Source: Natronomonas aquatica
Lineage (GTDB): Archaea > Halobacteriota > Halobacteria > Halobacteriales > Haloarculaceae
Direction: 5' to 3'
Assembly: GCF_024449025.1 (NCBI RefSeq)
Contig: NZ_JAHLKM010000022.1
Location: 1 to 33,999, forward strand
Length of the DNA: 33,999 nucleotides
In this document: positions 1-10,459 of the stretch, piece after piece
Layout of the letters: each line of letters starts with the position of its first letter
Numbering within the stretch: the first letter of the stretch is position 1
Program-made: the position numbers and the translations under genes
Notes under the pieces: generated by a model
What the model was told of the DNA's origin: nothing
What the model saw: the letters and a program-made list of their open reading frames with translations, nothing else
The model's database searches: none

Positions 1-954
1 ACTCTGCTCGATGGCTGCTAAAGACGGGACGACCACCTGCCACCGCTACTGTACAGCGTACGTCGTCTCGAACGAGAAGCCGGTGACGTTAGCGATGACG
101 TACGTCCGCAACGACGAAGACGAGGCTGACGCGGTCGAGCGTGTGCTCGCCCGCGTCGAGAACTATCCCTTCGAGATCGACCTCCTGCTTGCCGACAGCG
201 GATTCTACAACGAGCGCGTCATCCGTCGTGCTCGTGACATCGCCGCAACGGTCGTTCACGTACCCAAGAAGGGCGAGCGGATGAAGGACAAACTCGACAC
301 CCACAAATCGTACATGACAACCTATCGCATGTACAAGGACAGCGAGCGGGAACTGCGCTTCCCGCTCGCGGTCGCTGTCTCCTACCAGAACGGTGATCGA
401 GGCAAGCATGGCGAGGTTGTCCGAGGCTACGTCGCGTGCGGCGTGACTGATCGATCAGCAAAGCAGGTCGAACGCCTCTATCGGAAGCGGTCAGGCATCG
501 AAACGACCTATCGATTACTCCGGCAAGCACGCGGGATCACGACGACGCGTGATCCCGTCGTGCGGTTTGCAATCATGCTCGTCGCGGCATTGCTGGAGAA
601 CCTGTGGCTGGTGCTGCGGTGGGCGGTCGTCGCCCGCCCACAGCGGGGCGGGCGCGACCTACCCGAGGAGTTCACGTTCAAGACGTTCTGTGGCTGGATT
701 CGTCACGAGCTCGAAGAGGAGTTACGCCGGCGGTGGAAGATCAAAGCGAACGGGGTTGGCGTGCCGGCGTCACAGGCGTCGGCCGCGGGCTGACAGGTCA
801 GCCCACGGCCTGTTCGGTGGGCGGTAAGCGACAGCTGTCGGCAGAGACCGCCGAAATCTGGGTGAGATCGTCTGTCCGGGGCGGTGGATTGGAACGGTCT
901 CGATCTCCGCCGCGGTAGCAGCCGAGACTGACCGTCAAATCATACAGAAAGTGA
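1..954 (+). mobile_element. Right part of an ISH3-family insertion sequence (left end outside window)
   Basis: The window opens inside an insertion sequence whose transposase ends at 793. About 160 bp of non-coding DNA follows, up to a point where the sequence becomes AT-rich and a different reading frame begins. The right terminus is placed near 950-955, at the stretch ending in CAGAAAGTGA, by composition only. The matching left inverted repeat is not in the window, so this end is approximate. Confidence 0.6.
2..793 (+). CDS. ISH3-family (IS4 superfamily, DDE) transposase, 3' part
   Basis: DDE transposase of the ISH3 group, which cuts and pastes its own insertion sequence. The reading frame is open to the window edge, so the first ATG at 11 is probably internal and an N-terminal part (ISH3 transposases are near 390 aa) lies upstream. 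Counting from that ATG, the second catalytic Asp is in ADSGF (D62). The IS4-type YREK signature is Y157, R160, E164 followed by R171 in place of Lys. The first catalytic Asp may be in KDGTTT or further upstream. The C-terminal half is basic and Arg-rich. The protein looks intact within the window. It is GC-richer than the DNA to its right, as expected for a haloarchaeal IS inserted into an AT-rich island. Confidence 0.85.
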   Translation, partial: LCSMAAKDGTTTCHRYCTAYVVSNEKPVTLAMTYVRNDEDEADAVERVLARVENYPFEIDLLLADSGFYNERVIRRARDIAATVVHVPKKGERMKDKLDTHKSYMTTYRMYKDSERELRFPLAVAVSYQNGDRGKHGEVVRGYVACGVTDRSAKQVERLYRKRSGIETTYRLLRQARGITTTRDPVVRFAIMLVAALLENLWLVLRWAVVARPQRGGRDLPEEFTFKTFCGWIRHELEEELRRRWKIKANGVGVPASQASAAG

Positions 955-1160
955 CTATTTGGTGGTGTTCAGGCAGCATTCTCTCGACTCGTTCGGGAAG
1001 TAACGATAATGGCTGGAAGACCAACCAACAGACAATTGCGGAGATCGAACGCATCTTGCTTGACGTGTTGGTGAAAGAACACGATCTCGGCCATATCATC
1101 CAAGAAAACGACGAGTTCGTAGATACAATCCGCAATTATCTCATTCAAAACCATGGCTGA
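951..1160 (+). pseudogene. Short ORF, possible C-terminal remnant of type I restriction subunit HsdR
   Basis: The last 45 or so residues are acidic and helical (from NQQTIAEIERI to IRNYLIQNHG) and resemble the C-terminal tail of HsdR-type restriction subunits. The first 20 residues look like random translation across the insertion-sequence border. The GTG at 951 is only the first possible start; the frame stays open back to 828 through the insertion sequence. Its stop (TGA 1158-1160) overlaps the start of the metallopeptidase gene by 8 bp, which suggests the two were once translationally coupled. DUF45-type peptidases often follow hsdR in haloarchaeal type I restriction operons. The HsdR assignment is an inference from this tail and context, with no catalytic motif left to test it. 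Confidence 0.4.
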
Positions 1161-1875
1161 GACGCAACAACGTGTGGTCGATTTGTTGGGTGACTCCGTT
1201 GAGTACGATTTGAGCCGTAGTTCTGATGCCACCAAACCTCGAATTGATGTAGATATTCACGGCGTCACGGTTGTTGTTCCTGAATCTACGGAGATTCATC
1301 CAGCGGAATTGCTCAAGGAGAACGCGGCATGGGTTATCGAAAAGAAACAACGATACGACACCTACCGCGAGCAGATTCCAAACCGAGAGTACACGGAAGG
1401 AGCTGTGTTCCCATATCTCGGAGAGGAATGTGAAATCATAGTTGAAACCCGGTCGTCGTCAGATGTTGATGATGGCACCTTACGGCTTGCACAGCATCAC
1501 GTTGAGGAAACCTCGATAAAACGCGCTCTCGAAACACTCTATCGGAGAAAAGCGCGCGAGATGTTCGAGAAGCAAGCTGAGTACTATGCGAAAGCCATGG
1601 GGGTAGAATACGGACAGATTCACATAAGAAATCAGAAGACCAAGTGGGGATCATGCTCGACAAGCGGTACACTCAGTCTGAATTGGCGGCTGATGATGGC
1701 CCCTCAAGAGATAGTGGATTATATCGTGATCCACGAACTCGCCCACCTCCAAGAGCCGAACCACGATGACTCATTCTGGTCACTCGTCGCGGAATATGAT
1801 CCAGAATATGAAGCCCACAGCCGGTGGCTGGAAGAGCATAGTACTGAATTGATATTCTCTGAAGATGATCTCTAA
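1153..1875 (+). CDS. YgjP-like (DUF45 / M48-type) zinc metallopeptidase
   Basis: A 240-aa predicted zinc metallopeptidase of the YgjP/DUF45 family. The zinc-binding HExxH is HELAH (H194, E195, H198), followed by H204 in the NHDDSFW segment that normally supplies the third ligand. The upstream WGSCS (165-169) and SLNWRL motifs are typical of the family. The N-terminal 120 residues form the usual beta-rich domain. No signal peptide or membrane helix is visible, so it should act in the cytoplasm. The natural substrate of this family is poorly defined. In archaea and bacteria it often sits beside type I restriction-modification genes, which fits the possible hsdR tail it overlaps. Codon use is AT-richer than in the core genome, consistent with horizontal transfer. 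Confidence 0.85.
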   Translation: MAETQQRVVDLLGDSVEYDLSRSSDATKPRIDVDIHGVTVVVPESTEIHPAELLKENAAWVIEKKQRYDTYREQIPNREYTEGAVFPYLGEECEIIVETRSSSDVDDGTLRLAQHHVEETSIKRALETLYRRKAREMFEKQAEYYAKAMGVEYGQIHIRNQKTKWGSCSTSGTLSLNWRLMMAPQEIVDYIVIHELAHLQEPNHDDSFWSLVAEYDPEYEAHSRWLEEHSTELIFSEDDL

Positions 1876-2998: not shown

Positions 2999-3041
2999 TT
3001 TGAACTCACCGGTACAAGTATATAGTAGGGCTGAGTTCAAA
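2999..3041. terminator. 10-bp perfect inverted repeat between convergent genes
   Basis: TTTGAACTCA (2999-3008) is repeated as its exact reverse complement TGAGTTCAAA (3032-3041) around a 23-nt loop. It lies in the 197-bp space between the convergent genes ending at 2855 and 3053, where a bidirectional terminator is expected. A boundary mark of the integrated element is also possible. Confidence 0.45.
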
Positions 3042-3052
3042 TGATTGAAATA

Positions 3053-5218
3053 TTATATATCTAAGACTCCGCTTGGAGCGTAGTCGGCGGAGAATAAATG
3101 AGCATTATACGGACCAGCTTCTTCTTCAACATTAAGAAATGGCTGATCCGAGAACTTCCGAAACGTGGTATAAATGTGGTTCTTGCTGACGCTTATCGGG
3201 ATCCTTTCTTTAATTTCAGATGCCGTTTCTTGCCCACCGGACTCAACCAAGTGGCTGAGAATCTGCTTCTGTTTCTTACCGAACGGTATGACATCGTCAA
3301 TCTTCTCGTCAACATATTCGTCCGGAAGTACATTCGTCATTACATATACCGTCGCTTCATCATCGGGATCCTGAGGTGAACGAGCATACCTCCCGCAGGC
3401 CTGTAGTACCCCATCGCGCTGAATATCTCCAAGGATTGATTCTGCAAGGTCAGCGTCTGGTCCTACCCACGATTGTCCCCGATAGTCTTCGTCAATCTCA
3501 CGTTTTGGGATGGCACTTTTGTCGAAGAGTGCGAGCCAGTCTTTGATATGATCGCTACTCGGACTGATACATCCCGCGATCAACCCGATCCGTTCTGAAC
3601 TGAAGTCTTCGATTGACTTTTCTGCTCCAAAATGGATCGTGTCTGGAGAGTCAATCCCTGAGTCACACAACTGGTCGTGTAGATCCGATTCAAACGTGTT
3701 CGCTGTGACGCCGGTTCTGAAATCGTCGCCATACTTGCGCGAGAGTTCATCACATATAATTCCGACTTTATTATGATTATACCCATTGTTCGTCCACGTA
3801 TTCTTGTTGTCTCCGACCTGTACAATATGTAGATCACGCTGATTTCGACGCCATCTATGTAGATTCTCAGAGCTAACAATCTGCTCTGAGTCAATCGAGG
3901 GAGTAGTATATGCTTTCCATTTCGGCATTGTCGGATGCGCGTCAAGCCCGACCACGCTTCGTGCTTCGTAGAAATCAGGGATCGATTGTATCAATCTCAG
4001 TCTATAATCGTCATCTATAACGATTCGAATAATCACTTCATGTTTAGGTCCATCATATCCACCATTGAGTACAGGGTACTCGTGACGGACCTCGCCGACC
4101 CATCGGTCGTGATTCCGCTCTTCAGCTGAGATGAGAGCTTTGACTATGCCCGGCGTTAGCGCGTGTGCATCACTATTACACTGAAACCACTCAGCATCAG
4201 GGGCTTCCAAAGTATCTCTGACCTCGCTGAGAGCTTCGTCCGTACCAATACCCCCGACTACTCTCACAGCCAGATCTTCCCATCGTTGAATAGGAGCGTC
4301 AATCTCTGTGAGATAGCTATTGACAGTCTTTTCTAACTCTATCTTTGTCATATCAATAGTGAAGTCGGGACGTTCATCGATGATGACGTTGCAATCTTCG
4401 ACGAGGCGGGGAACCTGAGCGAAGTTGTGGGTTGCGTGCAGAACATCGTACCTAACCTCGTCATCGTCGTTAATTGGGATGCCTTCCCATTGTGTTGAGG
4501 AGCGGCAATCATCTTCGTCACAACATGGCATTTGGCCATCACAACGCCGCTTGAATTCACCGTGCGCAACAGATAGTGGAAGCCCCCGGCCATCGCACAT
4601 ATCTCTGAACCATTTCGACGGCTCCCTTCCGTCTGGTGCGGTTATTGAGCCATTTTCTTTGTCATTATGTGAGTCGTAATCGCCCCTCGCAACCGGGCAA
4701 GCGTCGCCCCGCCCATAGAGACGTTTAGCTGATGCCGACGAGCTTTCGCTTTTTGAGAACGCATCGTCGCGGGCGTCGGTTGTCCCCGAAAGTAAGATAA
4801 CTGGCTGACCACCGGTGGTATCTTCACACGATCTCCATCGCTTTGTGCTTGCGGCGTGTGTTTTTCCAGAAGAAGTTGGAGCTTTGATCACGGCGTTCTC
4901 ACCGTTTTTCATCATCGCTTGGAGCTTCTCGGTGAGTGATTTTCGGATCTCACCTGTGCCAGCGCCTTCATACACGACGCTGTATTTTCCATCTGCCTTC
5001 TTCAACTGGCCATTCTGTACGGCTTTCTTGATGGCTTTCGCGGCGCTACCATTGTCGCCGATATTGGTGGTGATTGTTTTTATTGAACTAACGATACTTC
5101 CGCGTGGTAACGCATCTCCCGTACTGAACTCTAATGAAGTGCTATATGCGTGATTGAATATTTCCCTCCATTCGATTTTCTTGAGGCCGGTGCCAGCGTT
5201 TTGATGTTCATATGACAA
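3053..5218 (-). CDS. XPD/DinG-like SF2 helicase with cysteine cluster and terminal HTH domains
   Basis: A 721-aa ATP-dependent helicase-like protein. Motif I is APTSSGKTH (113-121; K119, T120). Walker B is IIDER (D281, E282) in place of DEAH. Motif VI is QACGRYARS, about 80 residues before the end of the ATPase part. Between motifs I and II lies a run of cysteines (C174, C208, C226, C232, C233, C238) followed by the HATHNF segment just before motif II. This order matches the Fe-S domain of XPD/DinG helicases. The N-terminal 80 residues and C-terminal 70 (from KKQKQILSHL) look like winged helices. The codon at 5218 is TTG. No in-frame ATG occurs before residue 102, so either TTG is used or the start lies between 5218 and the stop at 5255. 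It is probably the replication or DNA-processing enzyme of the element. Family placement is inferred from motif order. Confidence 0.65.
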   Translation of the reverse strand: MSYEHQNAGTGLKKIEWREIFNHAYSTSLEFSTGDALPRGSIVSSIKTITTNIGDNGSAAKAIKKAVQNGQLKKADGKYSVVYEGAGTGEIRKSLTEKLQAMMKNGENAVIKAPTSSGKTHAASTKRWRSCEDTTGGQPVILLSGTTDARDDAFSKSESSSASAKRLYGRGDACPVARGDYDSHNDKENGSITAPDGREPSKWFRDMCDGRGLPLSVAHGEFKRRCDGQMPCCDEDDCRSSTQWEGIPINDDDEVRYDVLHATHNFAQVPRLVEDCNVIIDERPDFTIDMTKIELEKTVNSYLTEIDAPIQRWEDLAVRVVGGIGTDEALSEVRDTLEAPDAEWFQCNSDAHALTPGIVKALISAEERNHDRWVGEVRHEYPVLNGGYDGPKHEVIIRIVIDDDYRLRLIQSIPDFYEARSVVGLDAHPTMPKWKAYTTPSIDSEQIVSSENLHRWRRNQRDLHIVQVGDNKNTWTNNGYNHNKVGIICDELSRKYGDDFRTGVTANTFESDLHDQLCDSGIDSPDTIHFGAEKSIEDFSSERIGLIAGCISPSSDHIKDWLALFDKSAIPKREIDEDYRGQSWVGPDADLAESILGDIQRDGVLQACGRYARSPQDPDDEATVYVMTNVLPDEYVDEKIDDVIPFGKKQKQILSHLVESGGQETASEIKERIPISVSKNHIYTTFRKFSDQPFLNVEEEAGPYNAHLFSADYAPSGVLDI

Positions 5219-5244
5219 GTGTAATTTGGTGGAAGTAAGACGCG

Positions 5245-5283
5245 ATTCGGCTGTTCACAATTTTAATTGTGACGTGGCCGAAT
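5245..5283. promoter_or_regulatory. Nested palindrome overlapping the helicase promoter
   Basis: The core is an 18-bp perfect palindrome, TCACAATT-TT-AATTGTGA (5255-5272). It is flanked by a second perfect pair, ATTCGGC (5245-5251) and GCCGAAT (5277-5283). Read on the minus strand the core includes a TATA-like TTAAAATT about 45 bp before the helicase start at 5218, so a protein bound here would control or block that promoter. A replication-initiator site is the alternative. Confidence 0.6.
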
Positions 5284-5341
5284 TGCTTATATTGCCTACA
5301 GAGAGGGATTCTCGCTTCGAGAGTTTCCTTCCAATTCGGCC
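5276..5341. repeat. 10-bp inverted repeat pair GGCCGAATTG / CAATTCGGCC with internal hairpin
   Basis: GGCCGAATTG (5276-5285) recurs as its exact reverse complement CAATTCGGCC (5332-5341). Between them sits a small hairpin TCTCG-CTT-CGAGA (5310-5322). The ATTCGGC word therefore occurs three times within 100 bp, in both orientations, like an array of binding sites. Confidence 0.55.
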
Positions 5342-5609
5342 GTACTGCTGGCTGCTGTATATATGTTTGGAATAGTAAATATGTCCCCTAATTTCAGCCA
5401 AATCACCCCCGTATTGTACGCGACCGGCTACTAAAGATACGCGGGTGGGGGGGTCGATTGGTGTTCTAACTGGAAGTATTATTACTATAGCACATACCTC
5501 CATACGTTCCGTTTCATACCGGGTGCGAACCACCAGATTTAGCCACGAACGTCGCCCCCCGCTTGGCATCTACTCTATATTGTTTCGTACCCTTCTATTT
5601 TCGATAAAA

Positions 5610-5905: not shown

Positions 5906-5958
5906 GTGATTGGAGGAAAGACATGCAAGTGTCGAAGTCATCCGTCGTGCGTAGAAAT

Positions 5959-5984
5959 GCGCCCCCTGTTGGAGCAGGGAGCGC
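5959..5984 (+). promoter_or_regulatory. Strong GC-rich hairpin in the leader of the zinc-protein operon
   Basis: GCGCCCCCTG (5959-5968) and CAGGGAGCGC (5975-5984) pair over 10 bp with one mismatch around the loop TTGGAG. It is GC-rich compared with its AT-rich surroundings and lies 5 bp before a second hairpin. Confidence 0.55.
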
Positions 5985-5988
5985 GGGT

Positions 5989-6010
5989 GGCTTCGATTGG
6001 ACCCGAAGCC
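5989..6010 (+). promoter_or_regulatory. Hairpin abutting the start codon of the SWIM protein gene
   Basis: GGCTTCG (5989-5995) and CGAAGCC (6004-6010) pair perfectly around an 8-nt loop. The last paired base is the one before the ATG at 6011, and a further T88-A pair would draw the A of the start codon into the stem. In an mRNA this could hide the start codon. If translation began at the GTG at 5906, the hairpins would instead be coding. Confidence 0.55.
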
Positions 6011-6556
6011 ATGCAAAACGAATACTCGGCGGCACTTGAACGTGCCGTCACGGAAGACTGTATCGACGTTGAGAAACGCGACGTGCGCGCACTCACAGAG
6101 TATATGTCTACGCTCCCGTTCGGGGGTAGCCTGTACTCCGTAACCACAGAAAGCGGTTCTGAGTACCTTGTTGATCTTCTTGAGGGACGTTGCACCTGTC
6201 CAGATTACGAGTACAACCTCCCAACTGACGACGGACGGGAGTGGTGTAAACACCTCAGTAGAGTCGCTTTCGCCACAGGTGAGCGAGCAATTCCGGAGTG
6301 GGTAAATCCTGAAGTAGTAGACCCACAACTCGGAGGGCATACCAAGACTACCGTTCGTGACGGCCTTCTCACACACTCTCCCTTATCGAGGTCGGACTCT
6401 GATGCCACCACAACGGCGGCAGACATGCTCCAGACCGATGGTGGTATAGCGTCCATCTCTGACGACTCGGACGTGTGTGCGAACGGTAGCGAGCATTGTG
6501 ATGGTCCTGACGGTGACGGACTTCCCTGCTTCGAGTGCTATGAGGTGGACGAATGA
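6011..6556 (+). CDS. SWIM zinc-finger protein
   Basis: A 181-aa protein with a SWIM-type zinc-binding motif CxCx(n)CxH: C61, C63, C79 and H81, within YLVDLLEGRCTCPDYE and EWCKHL. SWIM domains bind DNA or partner proteins. In haloarchaea such small SWIM proteins are found on plasmids and in proviruses. The middle is Ser/Thr/Asp-rich and likely disordered. The C-terminus has a second cysteine group (C146, C153, C163, C166) that could bind another zinc ion. The ATG at 6011 is preferred because it directly precedes the conserved-looking region; the frame is open upstream to a GTG at 5906. The stop overlaps the next gene's ATG by 4 bp, so the two are one translationally coupled operon. Confidence 0.75.
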   Translation: MQNEYSAALERAVTEDCIDVEKRDVRALTEYMSTLPFGGSLYSVTTESGSEYLVDLLEGRCTCPDYEYNLPTDDGREWCKHLSRVAFATGERAIPEWVNPEVVDPQLGGHTKTTVRDGLLTHSPLSRSDSDATTTAADMLQTDGGIASISDDSDVCANGSEHCDGPDGDGLPCFECYEVDE

Positions 6557-7428
6557 CGAACCATACAAACGACGAGCGAACCGTTCGCTGTCCGGTCGAG
6601 GGCTGTGACGCTACGCCTTTAGCGAGAGGGATAAATCTCCACCTTCGACGGTCGAGTGGAGGAGGACACGGCCCACAGAATGAGCTACCTGAAGAGATCG
6701 ATCTCGATAATCTCACGACAGTCGGTGAACGTGAGGTAGAGATGGACTATCCTGAGAAGCGGGATACCGAGGACGTTGCTCGGCTCTGTCCTTACTGCTC
6801 TCAGCCCTTCAGCGGTCAGAACGGTGTTCTCATTCATCTCGGACAGGTCGCAGGTCGCAAGAACCATCCCGAAGATGGTGGTGAGTTCCACTCTGAAGAT
6901 GATTTCCCGGAGGTTGAAGTTGACGAACGAGGGAACGTCGTTAGCGTTGTTGGTGAGACAAATACTCCGGAACACACCGAGACAGCGAAAGCTGGTTCTG
7001 TCCCGAATCAGCGGGTGTATCAGTTCATCGCTGACCTTCTCGCTGATGGAGAAGTCCAAACGGCCCATCGCGTTCGCAAACGGTTGCTCGGGATCGAGAA
7101 CGTTGATCGACCGTTCCGAAGCGCCCCGTCCCATCCAAACGTCTTCAATGAAATCTTGGAGTACGCATATGACGCAGAAAGGGATCAAGAGCTAACTGCG
7201 GCTCTCGAAACGCATGGAGTGATGATTGCCCTCGGGGGCGAATCTGGACTCTATACTGCCGACGAGGTTCTGGATCTGGCGGCGTATTTAGATGGGAAGG
7301 ATCTGGATTCGTGGGATCAGGCCGGGAAGCTGAAAGATTTTGTTGAGTTTCTTCGGTACTCAGCAGAGCTTCTTCAGAACGAGACGCCACCGAAGGGACT
7401 GCATGAAGAGTTCCAAGAATGGCGATGA
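6553..7428 (+). CDS. Hypothetical protein with two variant C2H2 zinc fingers
   Basis: A 291-aa protein with two N-terminal zinc fingers. Finger 1 uses C13, C18, H30 and H39; finger 2 uses C79, C82, H95 and H105. Both have an unusually long spacing between the two histidines (8-9 residues instead of 3-5). Residues 110-145 are an acidic linker, and 145-291 are helical with no family I recognise, ending in EEFQEW. The likely role is DNA or RNA binding, but the target is unknown. It is the second gene of the operon: its ATG overlaps the SWIM gene stop (ATGA at 6553-6556), and its own stop overlaps the next small gene in the same way. Confidence 0.7.
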   Translation: MTNHTNDERTVRCPVEGCDATPLARGINLHLRRSSGGGHGPQNELPEEIDLDNLTTVGEREVEMDYPEKRDTEDVARLCPYCSQPFSGQNGVLIHLGQVAGRKNHPEDGGEFHSEDDFPEVEVDERGNVVSVVGETNTPEHTETAKAGSVPNQRVYQFIADLLADGEVQTAHRVRKRLLGIENVDRPFRSAPSHPNVFNEILEYAYDAERDQELTAALETHGVMIALGGESGLYTADEVLDLAAYLDGKDLDSWDQAGKLKDFVEFLRYSAELLQNETPPKGLHEEFQEWR

Positions 7429-7586
7429 ATCCAATGTCGGTCGCCAGCCGAGTTTGCGAGTCCTGCCCTCGTTGTGGAGATGATAGCGATGTCTGGCGCT
7501 ACGAGAAGACGGAGACGAGGGTGACGAAGCTCCAGTTCTGTTGTGAGATGTGTGGGTGTGGATGGGCGGAGGTCAGACAGAGTTAG
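7425..7586 (+). CDS. Small zinc-ribbon protein
   Basis: A 53-aa protein with two cysteine knuckles, C14xxC17 (CPRC) and C40xxC43 (CEMC), plus further cysteines C11, C39 and C45. This is the layout of a zinc ribbon like that of the TFIIS/TFB class, seen also in many tiny haloarchaeal proteins. The start at 7425 gives the classic ATGA overlap with the upstream stop (7426-7428); an in-frame ATG at 7419 would add two residues. It is the third and last gene of the 6011-7586 operon. It is too short for a firm functional call; nucleic-acid binding or a protein-protein role are both possible. Confidence 0.65.
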   Translation: MNPMSVASRVCESCPRCGDDSDVWRYEKTETRVTKLQFCCEMCGCGWAEVRQS

Positions 7587-7781
7587 TTGCCCGCACTCTT
7601 ATTGCTGAGTATCCCGAGGCGATCATTCTCCGGGGGCAATTGTGTTTGTGTTGATCTTCCCGAAGAGGCTGGATTGGTTCTACTAATATATCGGACTCTT
7701 GCGTGTAGTCATACATCAGAACGCATTGAGAGGGACCTGTTGTAGTTTACAAGGCGGTCCCGGCCTTGTTTGTTCACCTGT
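7587..7781. other. Spacer between convergent zinc-protein operon and two-TM gene
   Basis: No credible gene is seen. It contains the hairpin at 7749-7769, annotated separately. Confidence 0.4.
7749..7769. terminator. Hairpin between convergent transcripts
   Basis: ACAAGGC (7749-7755) and GCCTTGT (7763-7769) pair perfectly around a 7-nt loop and are followed on the + strand by TTTGTT. It sits between genes that converge (ends at 7586 and 7782), so a terminator is the simplest reading. Confidence 0.5.
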
Positions 7782-8015
7782 CTATTCCGTGGATAGCTTC
7801 ACGACTGTAATCAAACTGGCACACGCAAGCGCAAGCAACAACCCGGCGAAGACCATACTACCAATATCTCCGGCAATGCCTTGAGGAATCCCTAAACGGA
7901 TCATGAGGCTACTAAGACTCTTCGCAAATACGTAAGCAGTCAGCAGTACAACCACTACAGCGACAACGGTCATGGAAACTATCCCGTCGATGCCTGAGTT
8001 ACTACTCCTTGGCAT
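7782..8015 (-). CDS. Small protein with two membrane helices
   Basis: A 77-aa membrane protein with two hydrophobic helices (about residues 12-32 and 50-72) joined by a short loop with Arg and Gly. No enzymatic motif is present. Small two-TM proteins are frequent in haloarchaeal plasmids and pleolipovirus-like elements, but nothing here identifies it as a virion protein and no spike gene is nearby. The ATG at 8015 is preferred to the GTG at 8018 because a TATA-like box (8039-8046) lies 24-31 bp upstream, giving a leaderless transcript. Possible roles, none shown, are membrane anchoring, immunity or toxin. Confidence 0.6.
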   Translation of the reverse strand: MPRSSNSGIDGIVSMTVVAVVVVLLTAYVFAKSLSSLMIRLGIPQGIAGDIGSMVFAGLLLALACASLITVVKLSTE

Positions 8016-8038
8016 CACGTTTTAGAATGAAACCCACG

Positions 8039-8046
8039 TATAAATT
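8039..8046 (-). promoter_or_regulatory. TATA box of the two-TM protein gene
   Basis: TATAAATT on the + strand (AATTTATA on the coding strand), 24-31 bp before the ATG at 8015. Confidence 0.55.
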
Positions 8047-8302
8047 CTTTGGGTTGAGAATGTCCGGAAAACAGACTAAACGGACGCTAATAGACGGAAA
8101 TTCAGAAAATAGTGCGCAAAACAATTAACTTAAAGAATACTGGTTTTGGACATGCCTCACTATCGACATTGTGAGCGCTTACAATAGGAGATTTAGTGGG
8201 TAGACTATTTCTGAGATTTTCGTCTCTCGTACACCCTACGTTCGGTATTGAGCATGGGGGACATTTGCAAGACAGATTATAAAATCAAATCAACGACCGC
8301 TT
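8047..8302. other. AT-rich non-coding region with a near-palindrome
   Basis: No gene is seen. The region holds TTGTGAGCGCTTACAA (8169-8184), a 16-bp palindrome with one mismatched pair, overlapped by a weaker pair CTCAC / GTGAG. The half-site ATTGTGA also occurs in the palindrome before the helicase gene. An operator of the element is possible. Confidence 0.4.
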
Positions 8303-9301
8303 TTAGTCCAAATCCAGAATCTCGCGCCGTAGCTCCCTCTTCTCACTCTCACTCCGAGCATCGTAATGTTTCTCAAGAACGTCCGGTGAGACATCCATCC
8401 GTTCACTAATCACTTCCTTTGAATGACCCTCATTCAAAAAGTTCGTAATCGCACTTCTACGAAGGGGGTGAGGCGAAACAGATCCCGGACACTTAGAAGC
8501 AGAATTGTACTTCGTCGCTTCGCAATCATCGATCTCTCGGTTATGTGGACACTCATTCGTGTACACACAAGGCCGAGTCAGGGTCGTGATCTTTTTTCGA
8601 AGCGTTGTCCGGTGCGCTCTTCCCTGTGATGATGGGAAAAGTGGTTGGCGATCATAGTCATCTACGATGTCTTTCCGCTTGCCTTCGATGTAGTCGTCAA
8701 TGATGACGCAAACCCATTCGTGAAGCGCGATTTGACGTTCGGCGGGCCGTTTGTTCTTCAACGGTGTTCCTTCTTCAGGACGATGAACGACATCGATATA
8801 CATCTCGTCGCTGTTGTAGTCGCCAACATTCAGTCCCCGAGCCGTTCCGACCCTAATACCTGTCGTCCACATCAGAGTGAACAGGACATGTCTCAGGGAG
8901 GCGTATTCGTAGGTTCGAAGATACTGCATGATCTCCGCACCCTTATCGCTACTGAGAAGGGTATCCCTCGCTCCGTCTTCGATAGTTGGCATGACGATAC
9001 CCTCGGAGACGTTCTCCATCAGATCTCGGCCCTCACACCATTTGAGAAACGTCCGAAGGACAGACATCTGATTGTATATGCTGGCGTCAGAGAGGTCTTC
9101 ACGCCGGTCTAATTTGAACTGTGAGACGCCCCAACTATCTATGTCTTCGACTTCCGTGGGCCGTTCTTCATCGGCCTCACACCACTCGATAAACTGGTTA
9201 AGTTGAGATGAATGGTTGTAGAGGGTCGAATCGGAGACATCTGGTTTGCGTTCTTTGAGATACCGTTCGATTGCATCCGCTATTTGGATAGTTCGTGTCA
9301 T
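8303..9301 (-). CDS. Tyrosine recombinase / integrase
   Basis: A 332-aa site-specific recombinase that would integrate and excise the element. It has an N-terminal SAM-like core-binding domain (residues 1-105) and a catalytic domain with R150 (TTGIR), H278-P-L-R281 (the HxxR box) and nucleophile Y313 (EKHYD). A Cys/His-rich insert (C245, C251, H253, C260, C271) just before the HxxR box is typical of haloarchaeal phage and plasmid integrases. The position normally held by the LGH histidine is replaced by an MDVSP segment, also common in this group. The ATG at 9301 fits the family start. An in-frame ATG at 9418 lies 15-25 bp after a TATA-like TTTAAATTA and would add a Cys/Arg-rich 39 residues. 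The gene ends the AT-rich island next to core DNA. Confidence 0.88.
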   Translation of the reverse strand: MTRTIQIADAIERYLKERKPDVSDSTLYNHSSQLNQFIEWCEADEERPTEVEDIDSWGVSQFKLDRREDLSDASIYNQMSVLRTFLKWCEGRDLMENVSEGIVMPTIEDGARDTLLSSDKGAEIMQYLRTYEYASLRHVLFTLMWTTGIRVGTARGLNVGDYNSDEMYIDVVHRPEEGTPLKNKRPAERQIALHEWVCVIIDDYIEGKRKDIVDDYDRQPLFPSSQGRAHRTTLRKKITTLTRPCVYTNECPHNREIDDCEATKYNSASKCPGSVSPHPLRRSAITNFLNEGHSKEVISERMDVSPDVLEKHYDARSESEKRELRREILDLD

Positions 9302-9391
9302 GACACGAACCGCAAGAAGTGAGTACGGTGGCACGAGGGGGTGCCGGGTTACACACCGATAGCAGGTGCGGCGACATCTGCGTTGCTGTAC

Positions 9392-9417
9392 GGCGGTTCC
9401 AAATCCGCCCCGACCCA
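9392..9417 (+). other. Degenerate tRNA-3'-end-like sequence, candidate attachment site
   Basis: GGCGG (9392-9396) and CCGCC (9405-9409) form a T-arm-like stem around TTCCAAAT, which is one base longer than a normal T-loop. It is followed at once by CCGACCC plus A (9410-9417), as a tRNA acceptor end would be. The 5' part of a tRNA is missing. A tRNA 3' fragment beside an integrase gene is the usual sign of an att site. The partner copy was not found in the window. Confidence 0.4.
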
Positions 9418-9447
9418 TTCGCTCTTTGTCCGTTTTTAAATTACATA

Positions 9448-9465
9448 CAGTGGGAGAGACCACTG
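9448..9465. repeat. Perfect hairpin at the island/core border
   Basis: CAGTGG (9448-9453) and CCACTG (9460-9465) pair perfectly around GAGAGA. It lies between the integrase and the end of the EamA gene at 9518. It may terminate the EamA transcript or belong to the integrase arm sites. Confidence 0.4.
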
Positions 9466-9517
9466 ACAGTCCGATAGCATCGAACGCGACGTCTCCTCAC
9501 AGACGGCCTGTTTCTAT

Positions 9518-10459
9518 CTACCGATGGCCCGGGATCGACGCATCGCCGATCGCAGCGGCGAGGGCTCTGCGTTTCAGGAGCGCGAACCCGGCGGCGACGA
9601 ACCCGAAGCCGGCATACGACAGCCAGTTGATCGACTCGCCGAGGGCGAACACGCCGACGATCGTCGCCACAACCGGGACGAGATACGCGATCAGGGACGC
9701 CTGAAACGCGCCGTGGACCTCGATGATGTAGAAATAAATGTAATACGCGATGGCCGTCGCGAACACGCCGAGATAGAGGATCGCTCCGATCGCGGCCGGC
9801 GTCGTGAGACCCCCGCCGGGGAGTTCCCCCACGCCGAGGCTGAGCCCGTGCAGGATGATAGCCCCGAGCAGCATCGACCACCCGATCAGGGGGACCCGAT
9901 CCATCGATGGGACGACCCGCTGGATGATAACGCCGCCGAGCGCCACGCTGATGACCTGGCCGACGATGATGAGACGGCCGAGCGTATCCCCGCCGAGGAG
10001 GTTGTTCGGATCCGGCTGTACCACCAGAGCGATACCGAGAAAGCCGATGCCGACGCCGATCGCCCCGCGCACGGTGAGGTGCTCACCCAGCAAGAACAGC
10101 GCCCAGGCCGCGGTGGCGATCGGCATGAGCGCCTGCATGATCCCGGCGATGCCGCTCGGCACCGTCTGTTGGCCGATAAACAGCAAGCCGGTGCCCGCGA
10201 TGAGAAACAGGCCGCCGCCGAGGATCGCGAACTGGTTGTTCCGGCCGGCGGGAACCCACTCGTCGGTCCTGACCGCCGCATAGCCGAGCAGTACCGCGGC
10301 CGCAACGTCGTACCGGAGGGCGGCGAACAGCAACGGCGGGAGGAACTCCAGACCGACGGAGATCGCCGGGAACGTCAACCCCCACACCACCGAAAGCGCT
10401 CCGAACATCGATGCGTCAAACCAGCGGGTCACGGCCCGAACTTTCATCGAATATCGCAT
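9518..10459 (-). CDS. EamA/DMT-superfamily transporter
   Basis: A membrane transporter of the drug/metabolite (EamA) superfamily, with ten hydrophobic helices in two five-helix repeats. The second repeat starts near RLIIVGQVISVALGGV. Typical EamA features are the WGLTFP stretch in helix 1, a GEHLT segment near the end of repeat 1 and GESINW near the end of repeat 2. Substrates of these carriers are usually small metabolites or amino acids, and none can be assigned. The length, about 313 aa from the ATG at 10459, is normal. Other in-frame ATGs at 10489 and 10447 are equally open, so the start is uncertain by 10 residues either way. It is the first core gene right of the island and appears intact, so integration did not disrupt it. 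Confidence 0.8.
   Translation of the reverse strand: MRYSMKVRAVTRWFDASMFGALSVVWGLTFPAISVGLEFLPPLLFAALRYDVAAAVLLGYAAVRTDEWVPAGRNNQFAILGGGLFLIAGTGLLFIGQQTVPSGIAGIMQALMPIATAAWALFLLGEHLTVRGAIGVGIGFLGIALVVQPDPNNLLGGDTLGRLIIVGQVISVALGGVIIQRVVPSMDRVPLIGWSMLLGAIILHGLSLGVGELPGGGLTTPAAIGAILYLGVFATAIAYYIYFYIIEVHGAFQASLIAYLVPVVATIVGVFALGESINWLSYAGFGFVAAGFALLKRRALAAAIGDASIPGHR

Follow-up and report, generated by a model that had tools for sequence, protein, structure and literature searches.

A candidate element-specific operator and a separate conserved noncoding block upstream of a putative replication helicase gene in a haloarchaeal integrated element

The window (the whole 33,999-nucleotide stretch of Natronomonas aquatica DNA that was analysed) is part of a 37.4-kb contig, the left end of which is occupied by an integrated element; apparently ordinary haloarchaeal chromosomal genes lie beyond it. 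The element, whose features are collected in Table 1, is plasmid-like. The repeats considered here lie in the 391-bp gap between the gene for a small winged-helix protein (wHTH) and that for a DEAD-like helicase. Relatives of the wHTH protein occur on 93 plasmid records and, in 11 loci, are encoded directly ahead of a conserved noncoding block described below, while relatives of the 291-residue Cys-rich protein are found in HF2-like haloviruses. At the contig end, an IS transposase gene (11-793) adjoins the apparently cut-off HsdR C-terminus; the related element L052 still has the protein in full. Elsewhere in the element, a 10-bp inverted pair (TTTGAACTCA / TGAGTTCAAA, 23 bp apart, 2999-3041) lies just past the helicase stop codon, and the palindrome at the integrase gene (GTTCGTGTCATGACACGAAC, 9291-9310) is centred on the likely start codon of the integrase (ATG ACA CGA ACG, minus strand) and is a possible operator for that gene.

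Table 1. Features of the integrated element and of the wHTH-helicase gap (positions in the window).
Feature	Position	Strand	Remark
Type I restriction HsdR-like C-terminus	951-1160		Resembles the HsdR end in L052
YgjP-type metallopeptidase	1153-1875		
274-aa protein			Listed between the metallopeptidase and the helicase among the element genes
DEAD-like helicase, 721 aa	3053-5218	-	C-terminal wHTH-like region
Helicase start region	5207-5230	-	AAATTACACTTG, including the TTG start, identical in L003
Near-perfect palindrome, 45 bp	5242-5286	.	Outer half-sites around an inner pair
Third copy of the outer half-site	5331-5343	+	CCAATTCGGCCGT; 5332-5341 pairs with 5276-5285
Conserved noncoding block, 85-90 bp	5388-5476	-	Common to many haloarchaeal integrative elements
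Winged-helix protein (wHTH), 79 aa	5610-5849	-	
SWIM zinc-finger protein	5906-6556	+	Divergent from the wHTH gene
Cys-rich protein, 291 aa	6553-7428	+	Recurrent cassette partner
Tyrosine integrase	8303-9310, gene to about 9303	-	Annotated start ATG within a 20-bp perfect palindrome

The gene downstream of the palindromes most likely encodes a replication helicase, as judged from its relatives. The nearest of these (55% identity) is encoded at L003 (genome G032, also locus L054) of Halobacteriales archaeon QS_6_64_34 and the second nearest (49% identity) at L004 (genome G085, also L055) of Halosegnis rubeus. Relatives at 31-40% identity are numerous, and several lie within open frames of ~1000-1500 aa. 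The N-termini of such long forms match PF09250 (Prim-Pol) in L005, primase PHROGs in L059 and, weakly, DNAG_N in L060; no Prim-Pol or primase N-terminus was recognised in the long form L061. Circular plasmids of 8.9, 10.8 and 23.7 kb also encode distant relatives. Finally, in the compact integrated element L051, which comprises genes for SWIM, wHTH, helicase, a 263-aa protein and an integrase beside tRNA-Leu, the helicase is the sole recognised replication candidate. It is because of the Prim-Pol- and primase-bearing relatives, the plasmid relatives and L051 that a role in replication is assigned to the 721-residue helicase of the window, in which no N-terminal Prim-Pol or primase domain was found. 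An AlphaFold model of this helicase was unusable (pLDDT 37). Single-sequence scans for relatives in genome and viral contigs returned no matches, and an alignment-based query added a single distant locus, L056.

In the gap ahead of this gene, outer half-sites of the form GCRATTCGGC (5242-5251 and 5277-5286) enclose the inner pair TCACAATT-TT-AATTGTGA (5255-5272), and the resulting 45 bp form a near-perfect palindrome with one additional base on one side. An earlier note on this DNA, made from the sequence alone, had described the inner pair as an 18-bp perfect palindrome. Its 8-bp arms are indeed present, but only 16 of the 18 positions are symmetric, since the central TT is not self-complementary. 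The enclosing 7-bp inverted pair is exact (ATTCGGC at 5245-5251, GCCGAAT at 5277-5283), and so is the 10-bp inverted repeat reported with it (GGCCGAATTG at 5276-5285, CAATTCGGCC at 5332-5341), whose spacing is 46 bp. The AT-rich DNA and the G-run said to follow were found at ~5357-5390 and ~5445-5455. By contrast, the small hairpin proposed between the repeats folds no better than shuffled sequences do (z = -0.04), and the claim that the density of palindromes is far above that of the rest of the window did not survive scoring: 16 of 1256 tiles reach an equal or higher value of the same score, and the top-scoring tiles lie around 25.5 kb and 22.2 kb, within GC-rich coding DNA. Compared with dinucleotide shuffles, the whole intergenic gap reaches p ~0.03 for its palindrome score, and the summed score of the 108-bp stretch 5240-5347, a stretch picked post hoc, was matched by none of 2000 such shuffles. 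As single-stranded DNA, the plus strand of 5242-5286 is predicted to form 18 pairs at -13.2 kcal/mol (z = -5.2 against shuffles).

The order wHTH gene, gap, helicase gene is kept in L003 and L004, but the conservation among related elements that the earlier note had named as a check of its idea was not found for the repeats: the palindrome words are missing from both. The 18-bp palindrome core TCACAATTNNAATTGTGA occurs once in 142 family genomes, that is, at the present locus, and the palindrome has no second copy anywhere else in this genome. For want of a second copy, a multi-copy repeat or an insertion was rejected as its identity. The inner palindrome pattern is matched in 11 viral contigs. 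At the corresponding position L003 has only a weak inverted repeat (p 0.2-0.3), while L004 carries, at a similar position, an unrelated one (CTGGCAAT-12-ATTGCCAG, p 0.04-0.065), as would be expected for fast-changing operators. Palindromes are also not enriched on either side of the conserved block in 30 loci (Fisher p 0.35 and 0.54). Missing from L003, L004 and 141 other family genomes and unenriched in these 30 loci, the palindromes are rejected as conserved origin repeats. The earlier proposal of an origin or operator is still reasonable for the region, given its setting in a wHTH-helicase gap whose arrangement recurs in two related elements, but the set of repeats is not conserved.

The conserved DNA of the gap lies instead ~50 bp from the palindrome cluster, towards the wHTH gene and thus further upstream of the helicase gene. 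Used as a BLASTN query, the L003 gap hit genome G078 at 77% over 83 bp, within an element without a detected helicase. Aligning four copies defined a block of 90 positions (5388-5476 of the window, minus strand), with the approximate consensus CCRGTTRKWACAYCA, ~25 nt, TTRGTAASYCG, then ATTTGRCYNGATTTT. A profile built from sequence only found more copies in the family. After its re-estimation from 16 copies, 25 genomes out of 243 in the order had a match at E <= 0.01, the weakest of these matches being possibly due to chance. Dozens of haloarchaeal genomes carry the block, mostly within elements that bear an integrase. Since the profile uses no gene context, the surrounding genes provide an independent check. 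In 11 distinct loci, 8 of which lie outside the four used for the first model, a wHTH gene of the same orientation has its end anywhere from 8 bp inside the block to 179 bp ahead of it (L103 repeats the window, the wHTH gene of L119 is 842 bp away and the match of L076 is weak). The SWIM gene diverges from the wHTH gene in these loci, and the 291-aa protein follows in several. A related integrase is encoded in 14 of the 18 extended block loci, within the 15-19 kb covered for each, several integrases of block-bearing elements lie beside tRNA-Leu genes, and the cargo of these elements includes restriction-modification genes. No conserved base pairing or RNA structure was detected in the block among 16 sequences. 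With the block as query, BLASTN found no match among plasmid and phage records, and neither did the block model on 10 plasmid records, a scan run without a positive control. A narrow search of the open-access literature found no published description of the block.

Integrases that are 91-95% identical across genera are encoded in L051 (15095-16189), L140 (1576-2667) and L142 (3339-4430), all beside tRNA-Leu(TAG), while the cargo of these elements differs (helicase, Eco57I-like restriction-modification genes); a recent transfer is likely. L140 (7839-8426) and L147 (7372-7992) encode proteins of ~200 aa with 32% mutual identity and no Pfam match directly downstream of the block, in the place that the helicase gene takes in other elements. 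In L062, a ~2.7-kb insert (~7385-10110) comprising the block, a 90-aa gene and an integrase interrupts an ABC-transporter permease gene, and L065 has this 90-aa gene too, together with a related integrase, beside the aEF-2 gene.

An integrase attachment site is disfavoured as the identity of the block, which lies inside the element in L051, L052 and the window, even though in L062 and L065 it lies close to the apparent end of the element. A simple helicase promoter is disfavoured as well: L062 and L065 have no detected helicase, and the helicase gene of L151 has the opposite orientation. Since it is present without a detected helicase or with a reversed helicase gene, the block is not merely a helicase promoter. 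With lower confidence, we regard it as a candidate origin or initiator-binding site, and it would make a better origin candidate than the palindromes.

The palindromes themselves are more readily accommodated as an operator that is specific to this element than as conserved origin repeats, since the repeats are missing from relatives and the conserved DNA is at 5388-5476, which shifts the candidate origin ~50 bp away from them, towards the wHTH gene. We tentatively favour the reading, which we would place a little short of an even chance, that they form an operator specific to this element, located where the replication helicase gene is controlled, the block being a separate conserved cis site and the better origin candidate. 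For the narrower proposition that a protein binds the palindrome to control the helicase gene, we have moderate confidence. The match to L003 pins down the helicase start codon; the palindrome ends 24 bp before it, and its AT-rich centre (AATTAAAATTG, minus strand) could, from its letters, hold an archaeal TATA element, so that centre and position fit an operator placed over a predicted archaeal promoter. A DNA-binding protein would then occupy the 45-bp palindrome along with the half-site at 5331-5343, and the bound protein would occlude the helicase promoter and thereby limit replication while the element is integrated. Candidate binders are the neighbouring wHTH protein, the C-terminal wHTH-like region of the helicase or a regulator encoded outside the window. 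An operator is favoured by nested symmetry well above that of shuffles, by the wHTH gene next door, which L003 and L004 share, by the unrelated inverted repeat of L004, by the restriction of the sequence to this element and by the repressor-operator control reported for the haloviruses phiH1 and phiCh1. However, the weak repeat of L003, the modest significance for the gap as a whole and the lack of enrichment in the 30 block loci count against it.

It is possible, if on balance doubtful, that the block represents an undescribed class of origin or initiator site used by many haloarchaeal integrative elements that otherwise differ in their downstream genes and in cargo such as restriction-modification systems. 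The wHTH protein encoded directly ahead of the block would be its dedicated binder, and the palindromes would add initiator or repressor specificity. A rather unlikely alternative is a bipartite origin, in which the block is the core and the palindromes are a variable site for the element's own initiator. The proximity of the conserved block and the adjacent replication-type helicase gene speak for such an origin, as does the parallel with SNJ2, whose conserved origin element comes with an inverted repeat of unconserved sequence and spacing (PMC13107129). However, the element has no recognised nicking enzyme like that of SNJ2, the block lacks a conserved hairpin and flanking inverted repeats are not a general feature of block-bearing loci.

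It is improbable, to our mind, that the palindromes are without function and arose as a chance cluster, or persist as a relic, in intergenic DNA that evolves fast. Their conservation in no relative, the lack of another copy in the genome, the gap-level p value and the coding-DNA tiles that score equal or higher would all be explained in this way. However, nested symmetry with three matching half-sites and a DNA fold far below that of shuffles, placed exactly in front of a replication gene, is not easily ascribed to chance, and the lack of a second copy gives no hint of a mobile insertion. Quite improbable is an action at the RNA level, whereby transcription from upstream would create a hairpin in the helicase mRNA leader that limits translation or elongation: folded as RNA, the same 45 nt shortly before the start codon reach -18.5 kcal/mol, and an ATATAA lies upstream of the palindrome at ~5290, but many haloarchaeal transcripts are leaderless or have short leaders, the symmetry is high in DNA terms too and the leader hairpin is not conserved in L003.

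To our knowledge, few haloarchaeal integrative plasmids have had their replication starts and control sites described. The palindromes would add one more element-specific control site, and the block offers a testable marker that finds integrative elements across Halobacteriales by DNA alone.

Three known systems bear comparison with this locus. Like the Prim-Pol/helicase proteins of archaeal plasmids, the window helicase is homologous to the C-terminal half of long haloarchaeal forms of the Prim-Pol or primase type, some of which are encoded on plasmids of 8.9-23.7 kb; unlike them, it has no primase part and starts only ~90 residues before the helicase motifs. The origin of the betapleolipovirus SNJ2 (RepSNJ2 / Rep-Arvir) consists of a conserved element and an inverted repeat that varies in sequence and spacing (PMC13107129). 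The window likewise combines a conserved cis element beside a replication gene with an unconserved inverted repeat, in an integrated element that has an integrase. However, SNJ2 uses a nicking endonuclease together with a hairpin that is conserved, whereas the neighbour gene here encodes a helicase, no Rep-Arvir (DUF7845) domain was found in the main element proteins of the window (the element being cut off at the contig end) and no conserved nick-site hairpin was seen, with no consensus pairs in the block among 16 sequences and a palindrome hairpin that is not conserved. Since neither the nicking enzyme nor the conserved hairpin was found, the likeness to SNJ2 is one of layout, not of membership. 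In the haloarchaeal viruses phiH1 and phiCh1, the replication region is under repressor-operator control (PMC6210493, PMC6471424). No sequence relation to these viruses was seen and the binding and promoter roles in the window are predicted, but as with RepR and its relatives, the gene for a small DNA-binding protein lies beside a replication gene, with the putative control sites between them.
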